Source: Syntrophomonas sp. | GTDB lineage: Bacteria; Bacillota; Syntrophomonadia; Syntrophomonadales; Syntrophomonadaceae | Direction of reading: 5' to 3' | Length of the DNA: 64,000 nucleotides | NCBI GenBank assembly: GCA_016841875.1 | Contig: JAENYG010000001.1 | Coordinates: forward strand, 1-64,000 | In this document: one piece after another, positions 18,855-64,000 of the stretch | Position numbering within the stretch: the first letter of the stretch is position 1 | Layout of the letters: each line of letters begins with the position of its first letter | Made by a program: the position numbers and the translations under genes | The notes under the pieces: generated by a model | Seen by the model: only the letters and a program-made list of their open reading frames with translations | Database searches by the model: none | Told to the model about the DNA's origin: nothing

Positions 18855-19398
18855 TCCCCTTATTAATAAAAGCCTGCAGTTTGTTATCTGCAGGCTCCTT
18901 TGCCTTCAATAAAAAAACCTGCCGGGAAATCCCCACAGGCCTCACTGCCATTATTTTTTGTTTTTATTTATCTTTCGCAGATTCTCTACAACAAAGTGAT
19001 GTTTCGGGCATCTTTACCTTAAATACAAAATCCGCAGGATCATTTCCTGCGGGCTCCTTTGCCTGCATTAAAAAAGCCTGTCGGGAATCCCCACAGGCTT
19101 CATTGCCGTTATTTTTTTGTTTTTATTTATCTTTCGCAGCAGCAAGATTCTCTACAACAAAGTGATGTTTCAGGGCATCTTCACCTTAAATACAAAATCC
19201 GCAGGATCATTTCCTGCGGGCTCCTTTGCCTGCATTAAAAAAGCCTGTCGGGAATCCCCACAGGCTTCATTGCCGTTATTTTTTTGTTTTTATTTATCTT
19301 TCGCAGCAGCAAGATTCTCTACAACAAAGTGATGTTTCAGGGCATCTTCACCTTAAATACAAAATCCGCAGGATCATTTCCTGCGGGCTCCTTTGCCA
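18855..19398 (-). repeat. 167-bp tandem repeats carrying terminator hairpins (about 3.3 copies)
   Basis: Near-identical units begin at 19021 and 19188 (exact period 167), with a partial copy at 19355-19398 and a diverged copy at about 18857-19020. Each unit has two hairpins that end in T runs on the minus strand: AAGCCTGT/ACAGGCTT followed by TTTTTT, and CCGCAGGA/TCCTGCGG followed by ATTTTG. The unit length is not a multiple of three and the minus-strand frames break, so the units are not coding repeats. They lie upstream of the permease operon and would block transcription from the IS, or form a multi-terminator leader. Confidence 0.85.
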
Positions 19399-53539: not shown

Positions 53540-54874
53540 CTACAGCTTATTAGATTTAACCCAAATGTTCATTTTCTCAGCCTCTTTAATCAGTTCATCA
53601 CGCTGATCAGGGTGAGCAATGCCAATAAGCAGTTCTGCCTTCTCCCAGGTCGTCTTGCCCTTAAGATCCACTGCACCGTATTCGGTTGAAACATAATGCG
53701 TAACCGTACGGGGAACGGTTACGATGGTACCAGGCTCCAATGTCGGAACGATGCGGGACTTCTTGGCATCTCCTTTTCCCTGCATTGAGGACAGGCAGAT
53801 GACGCCTACGCCGCCTTTGGAATTGAATGCAGCATAGTGAAAATCAAATTGTCCACCGGTACCGCTGACATGTCTATGTCCAGATGATTCTGATGCCACC
53901 TGCCCAAACAGGTCAACTTCCATTGCGTTATTGATGGAGACCAGCTTATCAATCTGGGATGCCACAAATGGGCTGTTGGTATAATTTACCGGGTAACAGG
54001 CAACAGCCCGGTTCTGGTTCAGGAAGTCATATGATTTATCTGTGCCCAATGCAAATGTGTAGACCATTCTGCCTCTGTTTATGTTTTTGTATTTGTCAGT
54101 CATTACCCCTGATTCATACATATCTACATAGGAATCACAAAACATCTCGGTCCAGCATCCCAGGTCCTTGAGGTCCGATTTAGCGATCATCATACCTACA
54201 GCGTTAGGCATACCGCCAATTCCCAATTGAATTACACATCTATCTTCGATTAATTCCATAATGTGGCCAGCCACCGCCATATCGACCTCAGTGGGAGGCA
54301 CGTCGGGCAATTGGATCAATGGCTTGTTGTCCGACTCCACGATCATGTCTATCTCGGATATATGGATTGCTTCGTCAAATCCACCCAGGGTAATTGGCAT
54401 CTTGTCGTTAACTTCGACAATGATTTTCTTACATTTTTTTGAATTTGTATACATGGTGCTATTGGCGGTACCAAAGTAGAAATATCCATGTTTGTCCATA
54501 GGCGATACCTTGCACAGCATAAAATCAGGATAATGGTAACGATTGAGGAGTTCGGGGATTTCCCAATAAAGTGCCGGAATGTAGTTGCATAAACCCTTAT
54601 CGCTAAGAATTCGGTCTCCACCACCGTAGTGCCAGTTGGCATAAAGGAAGTGTTCACGGGTTGGGTCGCACGCAGCTACCTGAGGCAAACCGGGATAGCA
54701 GGTGGCTACGACTTCAACCCCTTTAAGTTCATCCTTCCTCTTGGCCAGATAGGCATCTAAGAAGGTTGGAGCACAGTTAAACTGTCCGTAGTTTACGTTG
54801 TCACCTGATTTAATAGCATTGACCGCTTCCTCCGGGGAAACCAGCTTTTTCCTATATTCACTCGTGAAGTCCAT
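53540..54874 (-). CDS. Butyryl-CoA / 4-hydroxybutyrate:acetate CoA-transferase
   Basis: This 444-residue class I CoA-transferase is of the acetyl-CoA hydrolase-like family. The glycine-rich [12 protein letters not shown] and the predicted catalytic Glu in CWTEMFCDS (relatives read SEMFSDG) are visible, as are SGTGGQFDF and the end [14 protein letters not shown]. It exchanges CoA between short acids, activating butyrate or 4-hydroxybutyrate with acetyl-CoA. It is the last gene of the sigma-54-led thl cluster. The 4-hydroxybutyryl-CoA dehydratase nearby makes 4-hydroxybutyrate a plausible substrate. Confidence 0.88.
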
Positions 54875-54897: not shown

Positions 54898-56724
54898 TTA
54901 ATAATCGAAAGTTTCGGTAACTGATTCAATAACCGAAGTATCAGCATCCTGTATAATATCCATAACCAACCATACGTTCGGCACTACGTTCCTTAAGTAG
55001 TAATGCGCGGACAGCAGCTTTCCGTTATAGAAATTGTAGTCATAATGTTCCTTGCCCAGTTCTTCTATTTTCTTCTGGGCTATCAGTGCTTGATCCAGCA
55101 GGCACATTCCGCCGTAAAGCTGGGCAGTGGCCGTGAGAATACGACGAGAGTAGGTTGGAATAATACCGGGGTTCCCCTCGGATACATATTTGCCCACCGC
55201 AGCCATGATAGCCTGGTATGATACCAAAGCCTTCTCCAGGTTGGCAAACTCCTTCGCAAACCCAACAGCAGCCTTGTTCTCACTTATGAATTCCTCGATG
55301 TTCTGCAGGAAGGCCGCAAAAACCTTACCCTTGCCCATTATCCACTTGCGTCCTACCAGGTCTAACGACTGAATGAAGTTAGTCCCTTCCCAGATGGAGT
55401 AGATCTTGCAGTCGCGAGCGGCTTGAGCCACCGGATATTCTTCACAAAAGCCATAGCCACCGTAGGCTTGAATGGATTCACAGATAAGGGTCCAAGCTTC
55501 ATCAGTTGGATATGCTTTGGCAAGCGGGGTCAGGCACTCTGCCATCCCTGCTGCGGCTTTCTTACGCTCCGGGTCTTTTTCCAGGTGGCCTACTTCAATA
55601 TAATAGGCAGCCTTATTTATAATCGCTCGGCAGGCCTCAAGAGTTGCCTTATTAAGCAGCAGCATCCGCCTCACATCTTCATGGTTGATGATTTGGGTCC
55701 GTCCGGCTTTGGGGTTGGTCATAAGGCGGCCTTGAATACGCTCTTTACAGTAATCTGCAGCGTTCCAGTATGCAATAGCAGCTACTCCCAAGGCAGCTGA
55801 ACCAGTCAACAGCCGCTCCTCGTTCATCATCTGGAACATCTGGGCTATGCCCTGGCCTGATCCAGTCTCGGCATCGTAAGTTCCCAGCAGCCATCCGCGA
55901 CAGCCATTGTTATCACCGCAAGCCAGAGCCACAGTGGCCGACCCTTTCATTCCCATCTTGTGTTCTATCCCGGCTGCCTCCACATCATTAGGCTCCAGAC
56001 TGCCATCATCATTTACCCAGTATTTGGGTACAATAAACAGAGATATGCCTCTGGTCCCCGAAGCCGCTCCGTCAATGCGCGCCAGGTAAAGGTGAATCAC
56101 ATTTTCCACATGGTCGCCATCTCCGCCGGTAATAAAAATTTTGCTGCCCTTAATCTTATATATGCGCGGATCATCAGTAGGATAAGCCTTGGAAAGAATA
56201 TCCCCTACATCGGATCCTGCCGTTGCTTCAGTTAAGCACATGGTTCCTGACCAGGTCCCATCATACATCTTGGGCAGAAACATCTCTTGATGGTAATCTT
56301 CACCGAAGGACTTGATCAGACCTGCTGCTCCTGTGGTCAGGGCCACATACGGCATAAAGGCGGGATTGGCTCCGGTCATGAATTCGTTGGTGGCACAGGT
56401 TAAGAGAAAAGGAAGACTACCACCCTCATCATCCACATTGCTGGTTCCCCAACCATTTTCCTGGATGTATTTGAACAGGTTTTTAAAAGAGGCGGGAATG
56501 TAAACCTTTCCGTTTTCAAAATAAACCGGAGTATTTTCACCGTCATCCGCGGTAGGCGCCATTACTTCCCGAGCTATTTTGTCAATTTGATCAATTAAAG
56601 TATCAATATCATCAACGCTGTAATAATCCTGGTATTTTTCATAAGCAAAGACTTCGTCGGTTGGGAGCCATTCTTTGAGTATAAATTTTAAGTCTCTGGT
56701 TTTGTACGAATAATTCGAAGACAT
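54898..56724 (-). CDS. Long (about 600-residue) acyl-CoA dehydrogenase
   Basis: This 608-residue protein belongs to the long acyl-CoA dehydrogenase subfamily with an extended C-terminal helical domain (PF12806-like). [28 protein letters not shown] and the Glu of [17 protein letters not shown] are clear. Members act on various acyl-CoAs, so chain length cannot be stated. It lies 23 bases from the CoA-transferase gene and 82 from hbd. The window's right edge holds a paralogue. Confidence 0.9.
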
Positions 56725-56806: not shown

Positions 56807-57664
56807 TTACTTCTTGGTATAATCGTAAAAGCCTTTACCGGTTTTCATTCCCAGATGGCCAGCTCGTACCTTCTGTTTCAAGGCCAGGGCAGGGCGATAT
56901 TTGGAATCGCCAAACTCCTTCAAGAAGTATTCCCCAACTTTAAGGCATACGTCCAGGCCCACCATATCTGCTAAAGCCAGCGGACCCATAGGCATCCCCG
57001 CCCCATATTTCATGGCCTTATCGATATCCTCAGCGGAAGCAATTCCTTCCTGGTAGGCGATCATAGCTTCTGCCATATAGGGGGTCAGGAGACGGTTGAC
57101 AATGAAACCCGGGGTTTCCTTGGCTTTAACTGGTTCTTTGCCAATCTTCTTGCACAGATCCATAATAATCTCCACTGCTTCTTCGGTGGTGTCAGCAGCG
57201 GGAATGACTTCTACCAGTTTCATAGCCGGGACTGGATTGAAAAAATGCATTCCCAGTACTTTGCTGCTCCGTTTGGTGGAGGCTGCAATCTCAGTGATGC
57301 TCAAGGCAGAAGTATTGGTAGCCAGGATGGCCTCTGCCGAACAAATTTCGTCTAATTGTTTAAATACGGCCTTCTTAATATCAATTTCTTCTAAAACAGC
57401 TTCGATTACTACATCACAGTCCTTCAACATATTCATGTCTGTACCAGCAGTAATTTTCTGCAAATTTTGGGTTTTGCTATCTTCAGTGATTTTGCCCTTC
57501 TCAACTGCTTTCTGCCAGGTTTTGTCAATTCTTTTCATAGCAGCATCAACTATGTTTTGAGCAATATCCACCAGGACTACTGTAAAGCCAGCTTCTGCAC
57601 TGATTTGAACAATACCCTGTCCCATGGTTCCGGCTCCTAATACACCTATTTTATTAATAGCCAT
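56807..57664 (-). CDS. hbd: 3-hydroxybutyryl-CoA dehydrogenase
   Basis: This 285-residue enzyme oxidises 3-hydroxybutyryl-CoA to acetoacetyl-CoA. The NAD site IGVLGAGTMGQGIVQ and the catalytic His in GMHFFNPVPAMKLVEV are present, as is the C-terminal dimer domain (KAMKYGAGMPMGPLALADMVGLD). I start at 57664 (AGGAGG ten bases upstream); a longer frame adds nine residues with no ribosome site. Confidence 0.95.
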   Translation of the reverse strand: MAINKIGVLGAGTMGQGIVQISAEAGFTVVLVDIAQNIVDAAMKRIDKTWQKAVEKGKITEDSKTQNLQKITAGTDMNMLKDCDVVIEAVLEEIDIKKAVFKQLDEICSAEAILATNTSALSITEIAASTKRSSKVLGMHFFNPVPAMKLVEVIPAADTTEEAVEIIMDLCKKIGKEPVKAKETPGFIVNRLLTPYMAEAMIAYQEGIASAEDIDKAMKYGAGMPMGPLALADMVGLDVCLKVGEYFLKEFGDSKYRPALALKQKVRAGHLGMKTGKGFYDYTKK

Positions 57665-57711
57665 TTTATTAATACCTCCTTGATATACCAAAGTTTACTT
57701 GCGATCCCATA

Positions 57712-58893
57712 CTAGATAGATTCAACAATGAAAGCCATTCCGGGGCCTCCGCTGGCGCATAGCGAAGCGCATCCGTAGCGTACACCGCGGCGTTTCATTT
57801 CATTAATAAGGGTGATTATCAGACGGGCTCCGGTTGCTCCTACGGGATGGCCGATAGAAATACCTGAGCCTACACCATTGACCCTATCCAGGTCGATCTT
57901 GAGCTCCCGGTTCACTCCCAGGAATTGAGAGGCAAATGCTTCATTGATTTCCCAGTAATCAATCTGATCCTGGGTCATGCCGGCATATTTTAAGGCCCGT
58001 TGTACGGCCGGGACTACACCCATACCCATAATCTTGGGATCTACCCCGCCAGAAGCAGCAGCTACTACTCGGGCCAACGGCTTAATTCCCATTTCTTTAG
58101 CTTTATCCGCCGACATCATGATCATAGCTGATGCGGCATCATTAAGACCTGATGCATTACCGGCGGTTACAGTTCCGCCCTTTTTAAAGGCAGGTGGGAG
58201 CTTGGACAACGTCTCTACATTGGTGCTTGCCTTAATGTGTTCATCGGTATCAAAAATACGAGTACCCTTTTTAAATTTTACCTCGACCGGAACAATTTCA
58301 TTTTTGAACCAACCTTCCTCGCTGGCTTTGCTGCCTCTCTGATGGCTGAGGGCAGCGTATTCATCCTGCTCCTCACGGCTGATATTATATAATTCTGCTA
58401 TATTTTCCGCGGTAACTCCCATATGATAACCATTCCAGGGGCAGATGAGGCCGCCTACAAACATGGAATCCTGAATTCTCTCTCCATCGCCCAGTCGGTA
58501 GCCCTGCCTTGCTTTCATTAGCAAATAGGGAGTATTGGTCATGCTTTCCATTCCTACAACTCCACCGATTTCTATCTTGCCCAGCATAATCTCCTGGGAG
58601 AGAATATCGGCAGCCCGCATCGAAGCAGGACATTGCTGATGAACGGTGGTGGCATAGGATTCAACCGGGCAGCCTGAGTTTAGTGCTACCAACCGGGCCG
58701 AGTTGCCTGGCGCTGAAGCCATGTTGGTGTGTCCAGCTATAACCGCCTCAATGACCTCTGGTCCGATACCAGCTTTTTCAAGTGCTGCTTTAAAGACGAT
58801 AATTCCCATATCCACCGGGCCAAAATCCTTCAGCGACCCAAAATAATCTCCTACTGCTGTTCTTGCTCCACTAACTATTACTACTTCCTTCAT
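57712..58893 (-). CDS. Acetyl-CoA acetyltransferase (thiolase)
   Basis: This 393-residue thiolase has a nucleophile in HQQCPASMRA (normally N-x-V-C-x-S-G-L), NEAFA, the His of SIGHPVGATGARL and the second Cys in CASGGPGMA (normally CxGGGxG). All catalytic residues are present, but the two Cys contexts differ from the usual consensus. It cleaves acetoacetyl-CoA to two acetyl-CoA. It is the first gene behind the sigma-54 promoter at 58942. Confidence 0.9.
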   Translation of the reverse strand: MKEVVIVSGARTAVGDYFGSLKDFGPVDMGIIVFKAALEKAGIGPEVIEAVIAGHTNMASAPGNSARLVALNSGCPVESYATTVHQQCPASMRAADILSQEIMLGKIEIGGVVGMESMTNTPYLLMKARQGYRLGDGERIQDSMFVGGLICPWNGYHMGVTAENIAELYNISREEQDEYAALSHQRGSKASEEGWFKNEIVPVEVKFKKGTRIFDTDEHIKASTNVETLSKLPPAFKKGGTVTAGNASGLNDAASAMIMMSADKAKEMGIKPLARVVAAASGGVDPKIMGMGVVPAVQRALKYAGMTQDQIDYWEINEAFASQFLGVNRELKIDLDRVNGVGSGISIGHPVGATGARLIITLINEMKRRGVRYGCASLCASGGPGMAFIVESI

Positions 58894-58941: not shown

Positions 58942-58956
58942 GCAATACTTGTGCCA
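58942..58956 (-). promoter_or_regulatory. Sigma-54 (-24/-12) promoter of the thl-hbd-acd-CoA-transferase cluster
   Basis: Minus strand TGGCACAAGTATTGC fits TGGCAC-N5-TTGC exactly. It lies 49 bases before the thl ATG. Sigma-54 promoters need an enhancer-binding activator, none of which is in the window. Confidence 0.8.
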
Positions 58957-59105
58957 GAGTATTCCTCAGCAATAATTCCCTGAGAATCGGTTTTTTTGAA
59001 TTCTTGGATCTGGGACAGCAATAATATTTTTGTAGTATTACTTAACACTGTTGTCCATTGCTACAAGCCAGAAACGGATAGATTAGATTGAAAATGCCCT
59101 TAAAC

Positions 59106-59129
59106 CTGTATTATCCGAGGATAATACAG
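59106..59129 (-). terminator. Hairpin after the crotonase gene
   Basis: CTGTATTATCC (59106-59116) pairs perfectly with GGATAATACAG (59119-59129), directly past the stop. No T tract is seen. It would end the 4-hydroxybutyryl-CoA dehydratase operon. Confidence 0.55.
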
Positions 59130-59130
59130 C

Positions 59131-59916
59131 TTAACGCGACTTAAACTGGGCCTTGCGTTTTTCTAAAAAGGCCCGCATCCCTTCCTTCTGGTCTTCCGAG
59201 GCAAACAGGGCTGAGAAACATTCCCGTTCAATCATGTTCCCAGTTCCCAGATCACTGTTCATACCATTGTTCATTGCTCTTTTAGCTGCTGCCAGAGCCA
59301 ATCCGGGTTTTACAGTCAGTTTTTGAGCCATCTTTTTAGCTTCGGCCATCAGGGATTCCACCGGGACCACTTTGTTGACCAGGCCATAGCTCAGTGCTTC
59401 TTCCGCATCAATCATACCGCCCATATATATGAGTTCCTTGGCCCTTCCCATACCGATCAACCTGGGCAATCTCTGGGTTCCGCCCCCTCCTGGAATAATT
59501 CCAAGAGTTATTTCCGGTTGGCCAAACTTGGTACCAGTTGCAGCGATCCTGATATCACATGCCTGGGCCAACTCACAGCCTCCTCCTAATGCCATTCCTG
59601 CAATGGCGGCAATAACCGGTTTTGGCAAAGCCTCCACTTTATCCATAACTTCATGGAAGATACCGCAATTGATCAAAGTCGCTGCCACCGTGTCTTCAAC
59701 CATAGAAGCTATATCGGCTCCAGCGGCAAAAGCTCTTTCACTGCCGGTGATAATAACTGCTTTGATTTGGTCGTCACCAGCGATTAAATCAACCGCCTGT
59801 CCAATTTCTTTCATCAATTCCTGGTTTAAAGCATTTAACACTTTAGGTCGGTTCAGAGTTATTACGCCTATCCCGTCTTCAACACTGTAAATAATATTCT
59901 GGAAATCCATTGCCAT
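59131..59916 (-). CDS. Enoyl-CoA hydratase (crotonase)
   Basis: This 261-residue protein has the oxyanion-hole motifs AFAAGADIASM and GMALGGGCELAQACDIR, and both catalytic glutamates (CELAQ; GQPEITLGIIPGGGGTQRL). It hydrates crotonyl-CoA to 3-hydroxybutyryl-CoA, linking the dehydratase product to hbd. It is the last gene of its operon, 49 bases after the SDR gene. Confidence 0.93.
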   Translation of the reverse strand: MAMDFQNIIYSVEDGIGVITLNRPKVLNALNQELMKEIGQAVDLIAGDDQIKAVIITGSERAFAAGADIASMVEDTVAATLINCGIFHEVMDKVEALPKPVIAAIAGMALGGGCELAQACDIRIAATGTKFGQPEITLGIIPGGGGTQRLPRLIGMGRAKELIYMGGMIDAEEALSYGLVNKVVPVESLMAEAKKMAQKLTVKPGLALAAAKRAMNNGMNSDLGTGNMIERECFSALFASEDQKEGMRAFLEKRKAQFKSR

Positions 59917-59965
59917 CTTTCCCTTCCATAATATTTAATGAACTGCTCTTATAACTCACTACCGG

Positions 59966-60745
59966 TTACATCGCGAGATAACCACCGTCAACCGCCAATA
60001 TATGTCCAGTAACATAATTAGAAGCATCCGATGACAGGTAAACGGCTGCCCCCTTGAGGTCTTCATCTCCACCCCAGCGCTTCATAGGTATATGGGTCAT
60101 CAAACGATCTCCCATGGAAGTGCCTATGGTATACTGGGTAATTTCACTGGGGAAATACCCCGGGCAAATTGCGTTAACATTAATGCCATAGCGAGCCCAC
60201 TTTACTGCCAGATCTTTGGTCATGATAGCAATGCCGCCTTTACTGACCGTATACCCCAGTGCATCTGTCGCTTCTGCTTCAGCTCCGACTATCCCGGTGA
60301 CTGAACTAATATTGATTATCTTTCCATAACCTTGTTTAATCATCTCCCGTCCAGCCTCCTGGCAGCCGAAAAAGCAGCCATTCAGATTGATATCCAGGCA
60401 CTTTTTCCATCCTTTTAATTTGTGATCAACAGCCGCTTCTCCCCATACAACTCCGGCATTATTAAACATGATGTCAATCTTTCCAAATTCTTTTATGGTT
60501 GTGGCAATTAAATTGATAACACTTTCCTGACTGCTTACATCACAGGCCACCGGAAGCGCCTTAACCCCCAGTTCCTTGATAATTTTATCCGCAGCCTCTT
60601 CACAGCGCTCCAATCTCCTTGCCGCCAGCACTACATTAGCACCAGCCTCGGCCAGGCCTTCAGCCATTTGTTGTCCTATCCCTACTGATCCTCCAGTTAC
60701 TACTGCTACGCGCCCACTCAAGTCAAACAGTTTTTGAATACTCAT
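59966..60745 (-). CDS. Short-chain dehydrogenase/reductase
   Basis: This 259-residue SDR has the cofactor site GGSVGIGQQMAEGL, NNAGVVWG, the catalytic Ser (NISSVTGIVG) and YTVSK. AARR after the second strand suggests NADP(H). It could reduce or oxidise a hydroxy/oxo acid such as succinic semialdehyde, or a 3-hydroxyacyl-CoA. The operon context alone does not decide. Confidence 0.88.
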   Translation of the reverse strand: MSIQKLFDLSGRVAVVTGGSVGIGQQMAEGLAEAGANVVLAARRLERCEEAADKIIKELGVKALPVACDVSSQESVINLIATTIKEFGKIDIMFNNAGVVWGEAAVDHKLKGWKKCLDINLNGCFFGCQEAGREMIKQGYGKIINISSVTGIVGAEAEATDALGYTVSKGGIAIMTKDLAVKWARYGINVNAICPGYFPSEITQYTIGTSMGDRLMTHIPMKRWGGDEDLKGAAVYLSSDASNYVTGHILAVDGGYLAM

Positions 60746-60775
60746 GCTGCTTATCCTTCCTTTCCTAACTGATTA

Positions 60776-61084
60776 TTAGAACTGAGTAGTTTTCAGTTCA
60801 GATCCGTTTAGTATTTTCCTGGCTACCTCGCTGGCCAGGATTTCTTCCCGGCATGCTTTACCTTCTACTTCCAGGCCGGAAACTGTAATCGTCTTTTTTG
60901 CTGGCGGAGCTTCCGAACAAGCTACATTGCAGCCATTAATAACCAAAACCATATCGCAGTCATCGAAATTGAAATACTTAAACAAATATTGCTCAGAATC
61001 CAGTATCTCTCTTAGTCTTTTAATCAGAAGTTTTCTGTCTATATACGGGTTGCAGCCGCCACAGAATTTAATACCCAGCTTCAT
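60776..61084 (-). CDS. Small CGGC-motif protein of unknown function
   Basis: This 102-residue protein opens MKLGIKFCGGCNPYIDR and has two later cysteines (INGCNVACSEAP), a set that could bind a metal or Fe-S cluster. Similar CGGCNP proteins occur in anaerobes near acyl-CoA genes, but I know no proven function. It sits 20 bases after the dehydratase and 30 before the SDR, clearly in the operon. Confidence 0.75.
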   Translation of the reverse strand: MKLGIKFCGGCNPYIDRKLLIKRLREILDSEQYLFKYFNFDDCDMVLVINGCNVACSEAPPAKKTITVSGLEVEGKACREEILASEVARKILNGSELKTTQF

Positions 61085-61104
61085 TTTGGTTTACAAACCC
61101 GGCC

Positions 61105-62544
61105 TTATTCTTGGGGAATGATTCCGCAGATTCTTTGGGCCAGTTTCTTGCGCTGCTCCAAATTAGCATCCCTCAGCAGGACTACCCTTTGAGCCTGGGG
61201 GGATCCGGCTCCATGCATGGATTCCGTCAACGCGGTGCCGCCTGTCATGTTCTCGATGAGCCGGCCCATCTTAATCCGATTCTCGGTGGGAACTGAAGCT
61301 ACTCCCTTGAAGTATTTCAAGATCATAGGACCTAATTCCGGATCAGCCAGATCCTGTTCGGTGGGCAGGGTGGCAATAAATCCTCCGGTTATATCGTGGG
61401 CTATTCGGCAGATCTCATAGTGGTTACGGGTAATATTCTGCTTGGTGATGTTGGCATAGGTTACATGCGGATAGTAGTTGCCCGCAGGAAGTGGATGTCC
61501 TTCATAACCTGCAGCCAGAGAACTGGTGTGCATGGTCTCACTCAAAAGTACCATTTCTACAAGTTTGTCTTTAATATGGCTGGCCTTGCCTGCTCCGTTA
61601 TAATCGGCGATGGCTGCGCACGCCCCTATCAGAACATCAACCACACCGACTTTGCAAGTACCATAGTTCTGGCGATGATAGGTTGCAAACCGCTCTACCA
61701 ACATACCGGCAAATTCTGTCTCTCCACACATAAAGACCCGTTCCCAGGGTACAAAAACATCATTGAATATTACCAGGGCTTCTCCGCCTACCACCCCATA
61801 AGTAGGATTTCCCTGGTCTAATGTCCCCAGTTTTCTTTCATCATTAGTCTGCCGACCAAAAATTAACACGATTCCAGGAGCATCCATAGGAACCGCAAAG
61901 CTTACTGCAAAGTCTCTATCTTCGGACTTCATGGAAACAGTAGGCATAACCAGTATCTCATGCGAGTTGGCTGCTCCGGTTTGGTGGGCTTTAGCTCCCC
62001 GGACAACAATTCCATCTTCCCTCTTTTCCACAATGTGGACAAAAACATCTGGATCCGCCTGTTTGTGAGGGGGCAGCCCGCGGTCTCCCTTGGGATCGGT
62101 CATACCGCCAACCACCATGAAATCATTCTCCTGGACATATTTCATATAGTCGCACATTCGCTCGTGATATTTACTGCCATATTTTTCATCAATTTCATAG
62201 CTTACACTGTAAACGGCATTCATAGCATCTAATCCCACGCAGCGCTGGAAGCAGGTTCCAGTTCTTTGTCCAATCGCCCTTAGCAGTTTAACTTTTTTTA
62301 CCAGGTCATCATTACTCTGCTGAATGTGCGTAAAGCGGTTGATCTTTTTTCCGGTTAAGTGTGAAGTTGCAGTTCCCAACTCCATATATTCAGGATCAAA
62401 TGCCATATCATAGGTAGCGGCAGCCGAATTTATATGGGGACGTATATAGGGGTTGTCTACCATGTTGTCAATCTTTTTCCCCTGAAAATAGATTTGAGTC
62501 TTCAATTTTCTAAGGCTTTCAGTGTATTCTGCTCCGGTTTTCAT
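61105..62544 (-). CDS. abfD: 4-hydroxybutyryl-CoA dehydratase / vinylacetyl-CoA isomerase
   Basis: This 479-residue FAD and [4Fe-4S] enzyme converts 4-hydroxybutyryl-CoA to crotonyl-CoA by radical chemistry. The cluster ligands known from Clostridium aminobutyricum (Cys99, Cys103, His292, Cys299) align with Cys98, Cys102 (GTCFQRCVG), His290 and Cys297 (YHRQNYGTCKVG). MTDPKGDRGLPP and TESMHGAGSPQAQR are also typical. I start at 62544 (AAGGAG). It is the first gene behind a sigma-54 promoter. Confidence 0.93.
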   Translation of the reverse strand: MKTGAEYTESLRKLKTQIYFQGKKIDNMVDNPYIRPHINSAAATYDMAFDPEYMELGTATSHLTGKKINRFTHIQQSNDDLVKKVKLLRAIGQRTGTCFQRCVGLDAMNAVYSVSYEIDEKYGSKYHERMCDYMKYVQENDFMVVGGMTDPKGDRGLPPHKQADPDVFVHIVEKREDGIVVRGAKAHQTGAANSHEILVMPTVSMKSEDRDFAVSFAVPMDAPGIVLIFGRQTNDERKLGTLDQGNPTYGVVGGEALVIFNDVFVPWERVFMCGETEFAGMLVERFATYHRQNYGTCKVGVVDVLIGACAAIADYNGAGKASHIKDKLVEMVLLSETMHTSSLAAGYEGHPLPAGNYYPHVTYANITKQNITRNHYEICRIAHDITGGFIATLPTEQDLADPELGPMILKYFKGVASVPTENRIKMGRLIENMTGGTALTESMHGAGSPQAQRVVLLRDANLEQRKKLAQRICGIIPQE

Positions 62545-62553
62545 TCTTACCAC

Positions 62554-62734
62554 TCCTTAAAATTAATTACCTATAAGCAATACCTTCCTTATCTGTGCAG
62601 GTAAAGTATCGACTTTATTAACAAGTGCCCAATTCTCCCAGTATTGCTCACCCCCCTAGATAAATGACTACTATGTTGATATAACAATTGAAGGCATATT
62701 ATATAATGTGATGGTCACTTTCATTGCTATAAAC
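62554..62734. other. Leader of the abfD operon
   Basis: This is non-coding leader and spacer between the sigma-54 promoter and the dehydratase ATG, about 190 bases. I saw no clear hairpin switch or open frame. Confidence 0.4.
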
Positions 62735-62749
62735 GCAATAGTCGTGCCA
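62735..62749 (-). promoter_or_regulatory. Sigma-54 (-24/-12) promoter of the abfD operon
   Basis: Minus strand TGGCACGACTATTGC matches TGGCAC-N5-TTGC exactly, like the site at 58942. The two share the -24 and -12 elements but not the spacer. Confidence 0.8.
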
Positions 62750-62888
62750 GCAGTAATACCGACTACAAAATGCCTGTTTATTGGGATTTTTTCATTCTAT
62801 CCGCCAGTAAAAATAGCAATATTTTTATGTAGCATTAACCAACACTGTTGTCTCTCACTACACTTCACTTCGTTTTACCCCAAATAAA

Positions 62889-62910
62889 AAGAGGGCTTTT
62901 CAGCCCTCTT
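62889..62910 (-). terminator. Terminator of the right-hand acyl-CoA dehydrogenase gene
   Basis: AAGAGGGCT (62889-62897) pairs with AGCCCTCTT (62902-62910), followed on the minus strand by TTTATTTG. It lies 28 bases past the stop. Confidence 0.85.
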
Positions 62911-62938
62911 TTAGTCTTTTGTTCCTAGTACCCATTCC

Positions 62939-64000
62939 TTATTCAAAGAAATAAGATTCTTCCATCTCCAAAAATGCTCTATCGTTTTTCTTAATAGCAT
63001 CGAATTTCCCTGTTACGGCTGGCAGCAGCGTTCCCAGGTAGTATTTGGCCGTGACTATTTTACTCACATAAAAAGCCGCCTTGGGATCATCCTTAATAAC
63101 GGCGTCCTGAGCACTTTTCCCATTTGCAGCTCGTTCCTTAAATATGGTATTGAGCTTCTGATATGCTATTTCCGCCTGCCACAGGAACATCCATCCCAGC
63201 ATAATATCTCCCCATATTTCCAGGTAGATGCCGGCCCAGGACTGAGTCAATGCCACTTCGCCACAGGCATTTTGAGTTTTGATCTGTTGGGTTATTTCCT
63301 CCAAAGTTTTCAGGTATTCAGCCAGGTCATTAGCATAGTGAACCAATTCGCTGATTTCAACCGCTGCCTTGATAGTCTCATTGACTTGAGAAATAACCTG
63401 CTGGTATGCCGCCCCGTTCTTCATATTAATTTTGCGGCCAATCAGATCCAGGCTTTGGATGCCATTAGTTCCTTCATAAATCGAAGTTATTTTACAGTCC
63501 CGGGCAAATTGTTCCACCAAATACTCTGAACAGTACCCGTAGCCTCCCAGAACTTGTATTGCTTTCGTACAGACATCATAGCCTTTATCACTTCCATAAG
63601 CCTTGCAAATGGGAGTCAGTACTTCAAGAATGTCACTCCATTTTTTCTTCTCGTCCTTATCTTCACAAATATGCATATTGTCTAAACAGTTTATAGCATA
63701 GAGTATTAGAGCTCTGATCCCTTCAGTATAGTTCTTCATCCATAATAGGTTCCGTCTCACATCCGCATGCAGAATAATTGGATCCTGTCCAACACCATTC
63801 TTGCCCAAACCCAAACCTTGTTTTCTTTCCCGGGCAAAATTAAGTGCATGCAGATAGGCGGTGCTTCCCTGGGCTAGTCCCTGCATTCCAACCAGCAACC
63901 TCTGTTCATTCATCATATTGAACATAGTTACAATCCCATTTTGTTCACTACCTAGCAGTTCTCCTTTACAGTTCCCATTATCGCCAAATGCTAGAACACA
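62939..64000 (-). CDS. Long acyl-CoA dehydrogenase, C-terminal part (5' end beyond window)
   Basis: The frame stays open to the right edge, so only about 354 C-terminal residues are seen, beginning CVLAFGDNGNCKGELLG. It aligns with the same region of the 608-residue protein at 54898 ([16 protein letters not shown]) and shares MMNEQRLLVG, GGYGYCSEY and the Glu of IYEGTNGIQSLDLIGRK. It is a paralogue in the same subfamily. Its own terminator follows. Confidence 0.9.
   Translation of the reverse strand, partial: CVLAFGDNGNCKGELLGSEQNGIVTMFNMMNEQRLLVGMQGLAQGSTAYLHALNFARERKQGLGLGKNGVGQDPIILHADVRRNLLWMKNYTEGIRALILYAINCLDNMHICEDKDEKKKWSDILEVLTPICKAYGSDKGYDVCTKAIQVLGGYGYCSEYLVEQFARDCKITSIYEGTNGIQSLDLIGRKINMKNGAAYQQVISQVNETIKAAVEISELVHYANDLAEYLKTLEEITQQIKTQNACGEVALTQSWAGIYLEIWGDIMLGWMFLWQAEIAYQKLNTIFKERAANGKSAQDAVIKDDPKAAFYVSKIVTAKYYLGTLLPAVTGKFDAIKKNDRAFLEMEESYFFE

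Follow-up and report, generated by a model that had tools for sequence, protein, structure and literature searches.

A GAF-PAS-type enhancer-binding protein (EBP) encoded just beyond the 64,000-nt window (the whole stretch of DNA analysed here) very probably binds a 35-bp tandem-dyad site found at five places around its gene and activates six sigma-54 promoters as a local regulon, as judged from sequence. The evidence consists of the promoters, the five sites, a single rpoN, an intact EBP and the co-conservation of the EBP, the site and the target genes. A likely activator is thereby named, together with the DNA site it is predicted to bind and a complete list of predicted targets, for an anaerobic acid-degradation pathway whose regulation has received little study.

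Two predicted sigma-54 promoters precede thl and abfD

The window corresponds to positions 1-64000 of contig C14 of a 3.97-Mb genome in 90 contigs, so that contig and window numbering coincide. A first-pass annotation had placed exact TGGCAC-N5-TTGC elements at 58942-58956 and 62735-62749, on the coding strand and at workable distances from thl and abfD. Both elements are exact and lie where claimed, on the minus strand, the one that also encodes the downstream genes; read from 58956 to 58942 the thl promoter is TGGCACAAGTATTGC, and from 62749 to 62735 the abfD promoter is TGGCACGACTATTGC. The distances are workable too, with 48 nt separating the -12 box from the thl ATG at 58893, which is preceded by GAAAGGAG, and about 190 nt separating it from the likely abfD ATG at 62544, preceded by AAGGAG; the GTG start at 62553 in the list of open reading frames is probably too early for abfD. 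The -24 GG and -12 GC consensus is present with correct spacing at both promoters, and a search for a sigma-70-like site found none at either. The elements, the transcription units that follow them and the neighbouring features inside the window are as follows.

53540..54874, minus strand: CoA-transferase, nearest to butyryl-CoA:acetate CoA-transferase but below that family's cut-off
54898..56724, minus strand: acdA, 608-aa acyl-CoA dehydrogenase
56807..57691, minus strand: hbd1, 3-hydroxyacyl-CoA dehydrogenase
57712..58893, minus strand: thl1, acetyl-CoA C-acyltransferase (Pfam and NCBIfam)
58942..58956, minus strand: predicted sigma-54 promoter (-24/-12) of thl1-hbd1-acdA-CoA transferase
59031..59065, minus strand: predicted upstream activator site of the thl promoter, 0 mismatches, one of five in the genome
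59103..59132, minus strand: hairpin after ech, between the abfD unit and the thl control region, 14-nt arms, 93% complementary
59131..59916, minus strand: ech, enoyl-CoA hydratase
59966..60745, minus strand: sdr1, short-chain dehydrogenase
60776..61084, minus strand: hyp102, small cysteine-containing protein
61105..62544, minus strand: abfD, 4-hydroxybutyryl-CoA dehydratase family (PDB 1u8v, E 1e-175)
62735..62749, minus strand: predicted sigma-54 promoter (-24/-12) of abfD-hyp102-sdr1-ech
62828..62862, minus strand: predicted upstream activator site of the abfD promoter, 0 mismatches on both strands
62887..62912, no strand assigned: terminator-like hairpin between acdB and the abfD control region, 11-bp stem
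62939..64000, minus strand: acdB, 600-aa-type acyl-CoA dehydrogenase, last gene of hbd2-thl2-acdB, its frame open to C14:64834, past the window

Since a ten-base pattern can arise randomly in 64 kb, the two matches might be put down to chance, but this explanation is barely credible. The window holds these two matches and none besides, whereas dinucleotide-preserving shuffles of it gave a mean of 0.14 matches and reached two in 0/100 cases. Genome-wide, the pattern occurs 35 times against 2 for the reversed pattern, and TGGCAT-N5-TTGCW occurs 53 times against 5 for its reversed control; among the first 30 genomic TGGCAC sites examined, 26 are intergenic. The genome also carries rpoN, on the presence of which the first-pass annotation had staked its reading, in one copy (PF04552 match, E 3e-64), together with 40 matches to the sigma-54 activation domain PF00158, of which 36 are strong, amounting to about 36 full activators. 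The shuffles, the genome-wide excess, rpoN and the activation domains together make the promoter reading sound, and it is strongly supported, at the level of sequence, that the two elements are true sigma-54 promoters belonging to one local regulon. The genome also contains what is probably a broken activator gene, in which an EBP activation domain (C34:52795-53235) is interrupted by an in-frame TAG stop.

A 35-bp tandem-dyad site lies upstream of six promoters

Alignment of the thl and abfD control regions revealed a shared block, lying in each case about 75 nt upstream of the promoter, and the same block was found at a third promoter, 11 kb past the window, with two more copies in the intervening DNA. 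The site is 35 bp long and is made of two tandem 17-bp dyads of the form TGTNG-N7-CNACA, 1 base apart (consensus TGTNG-N7-CNACA, one base, TGTNN-N7-CTACA). At no more than 1 mismatch it occurs at five places only in the 4-Mb genome, all of them within 17 kb around the EBP gene, and four of the five copies match the pattern on both strands. Beside these five sites lie six sigma-54 promoters, those of thl1, abfD, hbd2-thl2-acdB, the EBP gene, nfnAB and adh-SDR, at gaps between site and promoter of 74, 78, 122, 52, 218 and 74 nt, respectively, an arrangement that provides a candidate recognition site for the EBP. Four of these promoters, and the activator gene itself, sit just past the window:

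67245-67260: predicted hbd2 promoter (hbd2-thl2-acdB)
67383-67417: predicted site of the hbd2 promoter
67517-69481, minus strand: EBP gene, likely activator, 3.5 kb past the right end of the window and within the gene group
69524-69539: predicted EBP gene promoter
69592-69626: predicted site common to the EBP-gene and nfnAB promoters
69845-69860, plus strand: predicted nfnAB promoter, divergent from the EBP gene
75108-75123: predicted adh promoter (adh-SDR)
75198-75232: predicted site of the adh promoter

Hairpins separate the units, a third one lying between the hbd2 site and the hbd2 promoter.

Several other matches were set aside. Two-mismatch matches on C5, C19 and C29 were at the level of the control, and a match of the first upstream pattern at C14:112082 falls inside a phage-like structural gene and is absent from the full-dyad matches. 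Large minus-strand genes resembling phage structural genes, along with an amidase-like gene, occupy about 109.5-118 kb of the same contig (L063, 2480-10978), and this run is probably a prophage. Within the window, a perfect dyad, TGTCGGGAATCCCCACA, is present in two identical copies 167 bp apart (19079-19095 and 19246-19262), with no sigma-54 site neighbouring the pair.

The adjoining EBP is the likely activator

The first-pass annotation held that no activator is encoded in the window, and indeed 0/40 of the PF00158 matches fall there; the search for one led to the EBP immediately outside, at C14:67517-69481. Its translation contains GAF, PAS, sigma-54 activation (PF00158), lid and Fis-type helix-turn-helix (PF02954) domains with an intact GAFTGA motif, and thus combines the AAA+ domain with GAFTGA and the DNA-binding helix-turn-helix of an enhancer-binding protein. 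Compared with the PDB, the sensor part gave a match to DhaR (4lrx, E 1.6e-14); by this comparison the sensor is a GAF and PAS region of the DhaR/AcoR type. A short-chain acid or CoA ester, as suggested in the first-pass annotation, is a conjectural ligand for it. The protein shares the GAF-PAS-AAA+-Fis layout of EBPs of that type, but at 409 bits it falls below the DhaR NCBIfam equivalog cut-off of 551 bits, and its predicted targets are different.

The EBP, its site and its target genes are conserved together

To test the arrangement in other genomes, the EBP and the site pattern were searched for independently in 63 genomes of the class. Three EBP orthologs were found (G056-G058), all in a sister family, with 56-59% identity over the sensor part and 66% over the whole protein. 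The class search yielded no ortholog in the window's own genus and family, where the best match reaches 37%; these nearest own-family EBPs (up to 37% identity) were rejected as orthologs by both search and tree. Matches to the site on both strands were confined to the three ortholog genomes and the window's genome, single-strand matches in G009 and G018 being at chance level. The distance between the site and the EBP start is no more than about 300 bp in G056 and G058; in G057 it is about 1.9 kb, and a transporter gene intervenes. After the EBP in G058 come an AMP-dependent ligase and orthologs of acdB (72%) and abfD (74%). Some sigma-54 promoters in G056-G058 are without the site at the usual distance.

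A sample of 399 genomes from across the phylum yielded four more EBP homologs (41-43% identical over the sensor, 50-51% over the whole protein), and in 4/4 of them (G135, G171, G088 and G436) the site directly follows the EBP gene, with a sigma-54-type promoter between the EBP and the next gene (TGGTACGGGGATTGC in G171). That next gene is abfD (63-65%) in G135, G171 and G088; in G436 the next coding sequence is cut by the contig end and reads as the start of a thiolase. The order in G088 is CoA-transferase, EBP, site and promoter, abfD, a hyp102-like gene, two CoA-transferase subunits, SDR, a short-chain fatty acid transporter and thiolase. Taken over all 7/7 other genomes with an EBP ortholog, the site lies no more than 2 kb away and abfD, acyl-CoA dehydrogenase or thiolase genes are adjacent. 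As a control, 0/59 other EBP loci in the window's genome and its relatives carry the site at up to 2 mismatches. All eight EBPs that have the site fall into a single clade (support 100/97) and share a recognition helix.

These results bear on two other readings. In the first, the promoters are sigma-54 promoters but another of the roughly 36 EBPs is their main activator, which would leave the neighbouring EBP in charge of nothing but its own gene and nfnAB. The genome does hold many EBPs, and the TGT/ACA motif class recurs among EBPs; still, this is improbable, given that in three other families or genera the site is found between the EBP and abfD and that the other EBP loci examined in the window's genome are without it. 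The second makes the 35-bp palindromes the target of a different protein, a repressor or a global regulator, with the EBP nearby only by coincidence. Regulators of many sorts might in principle recognise palindromes that lie 52-218 bp from a promoter, yet we regard this second reading as very improbable, because the site tracks the EBP clade across families and has the TGT-N10-12-ACA form known for Fis-type EBPs (PMC6615313). Activation by the neighbouring EBP is therefore the reading we prefer, and the proposal that sigma-54 control runs through a common activator is strongly supported by the presence of rpoN, a 35-bp site common to both promoters and an adjoining EBP co-conserved with that site.

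Both-strand site matches were also found elsewhere in the phylum, in G214, G420, G344, G064 and G378. Those in G214 and G420 stand next to EBPs of another kind (identity 36-39% across the aligned region), whose targets are also different, and were not counted as the same module, that in G344 is near a different sigma-54-like site, and that in G064 has no sigma-54-like site nearby. The occurrence of tandem TGT/ACA beside other EBPs with other targets in G214 and G420 makes it a feature of the class and cross-talk possible; the assignment of the site to the EBP, which rests on position and co-conservation, is to be taken as a prediction.

A predicted switch for the AbfD/crotonyl-CoA pathway

AbfD aligns with 1u8v such that all four [4Fe-4S] ligands, which we take to be Cys99, Cys103, His292 and Cys299 of that structure, are conserved. 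Between abfD and sdr1, hyp102 encodes 102 amino acids with CGGC and several further cysteines; it matched no Pfam or NCBIfam family, a similar protein (32%) also follows abfD in G088, and it may serve AbfD as an accessory or Fe-S protein. The earlier description of the units as acyl-CoA oxidation clusters holds in outline, with the refinement that the conserved core of the regulon is AbfD together with acyl-CoA dehydrogenase and thiolase genes. Taken with ech, the 3-hydroxyacyl-CoA dehydrogenases, the thiolases, the acyl-CoA dehydrogenases, the CoA-transferase and the NfnAB-like subunits, AbfD completes a gene set that fits a route from 4-hydroxybutyryl-CoA (or vinylacetyl-CoA) through crotonyl-CoA to acetyl-CoA. 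The genes examined did not include a recognisable 4-hydroxybutyrate dehydrogenase. The electrons of the pathway may be handled by NfnAB, and this electron-bifurcating enzyme is tied to the same predicted switch.

In the mechanism we propose, the GAF/PAS part of the EBP would perceive a compound of the AbfD/crotonyl-CoA pathway, either a substrate or a CoA intermediate, and the EBP would bind the tandem-dyad site upstream of the promoters and, by ATP hydrolysis, open RNA polymerase-sigma-54 complexes at all six. The targets would be thl1-hbd1-acdA-CoA transferase, abfD-hyp102-sdr1-ech, hbd2-thl2-acdB, nfnAB, adh-SDR and the EBP gene itself, implying positive autoregulation. An EBP gene driven only by its own product would need some basal transcription, and no source of this was found here. 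The conserved module of EBP, site and abfD opens the identity of the inducer to testing and offers a marker for annotating the pathway in other anaerobes.

Relation to known systems and to sigma-54 control elsewhere in the genome

Sigma-54 control of such genes in Clostridia is already reported. One study (PMC6615313) predicts sigma-54 control of butyrate-type operons in Clostridiales by CrbR, whose site is of the TGT/ACA type; as described there for Clostridium, the CrbR regulon comprises a different set of operons, with neither abfD nor nfnAB listed. For XanR, the same study predicts EBP/sigma-54 control of a clostridial abfD operon (abfD-nifU-hyp-ach-golB), but the XanR site is placed there among motifs distinct from the TGT/ACA type seen here. 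A broad survey reports beta-oxidation enzymes and COG2368, the AbfD family, under sigma-54 in Clostridia, and in its accessible text names no activator or binding site for that family (PMC12316311). In the proteome of Syntrophomonas wolfei, a PAS/sigma-54 regulator was detected only on butyrate (PMC4324140). We did not find the EBP clade, its site and its target set described in the literature, CrbR and XanR being compared by published description.

A genome-wide search for the same promoter, proposed in the first-pass annotation for other acd genes, located sigma-54 promoters before further acd genes and also before further thl, hbd, ech, CoA-transferase and nfnA genes. At seven loci (L009, L010, L011, L015, L017, L027 and L028) they lie directly before CoA-transferase, thl, hbd and ech paralogs, and several acyl-CoA pathways running in parallel in this genome seem to be under sigma-54 control. 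We tentatively consider, at somewhat less than even chances, a broader view in which this undescribed EBP clade serves, in several families of the phylum, as the dedicated activator of the AbfD/crotonyl-CoA pathway and sigma-54 is the main switch here for paralogous acyl-CoA oxidation sets, each perhaps with its own EBP. Elsewhere in the genome, a sigma-54 promoter at C2:19805-19819 (L001) lies 30 nt before an nfnA paralog (81% identical), and a second AbfD-family gene (38% identical; C56:1371-2546, L029 and L030) has its own sigma-54 promoter, with a second sigma-54 site at the same locus in the opposite orientation.
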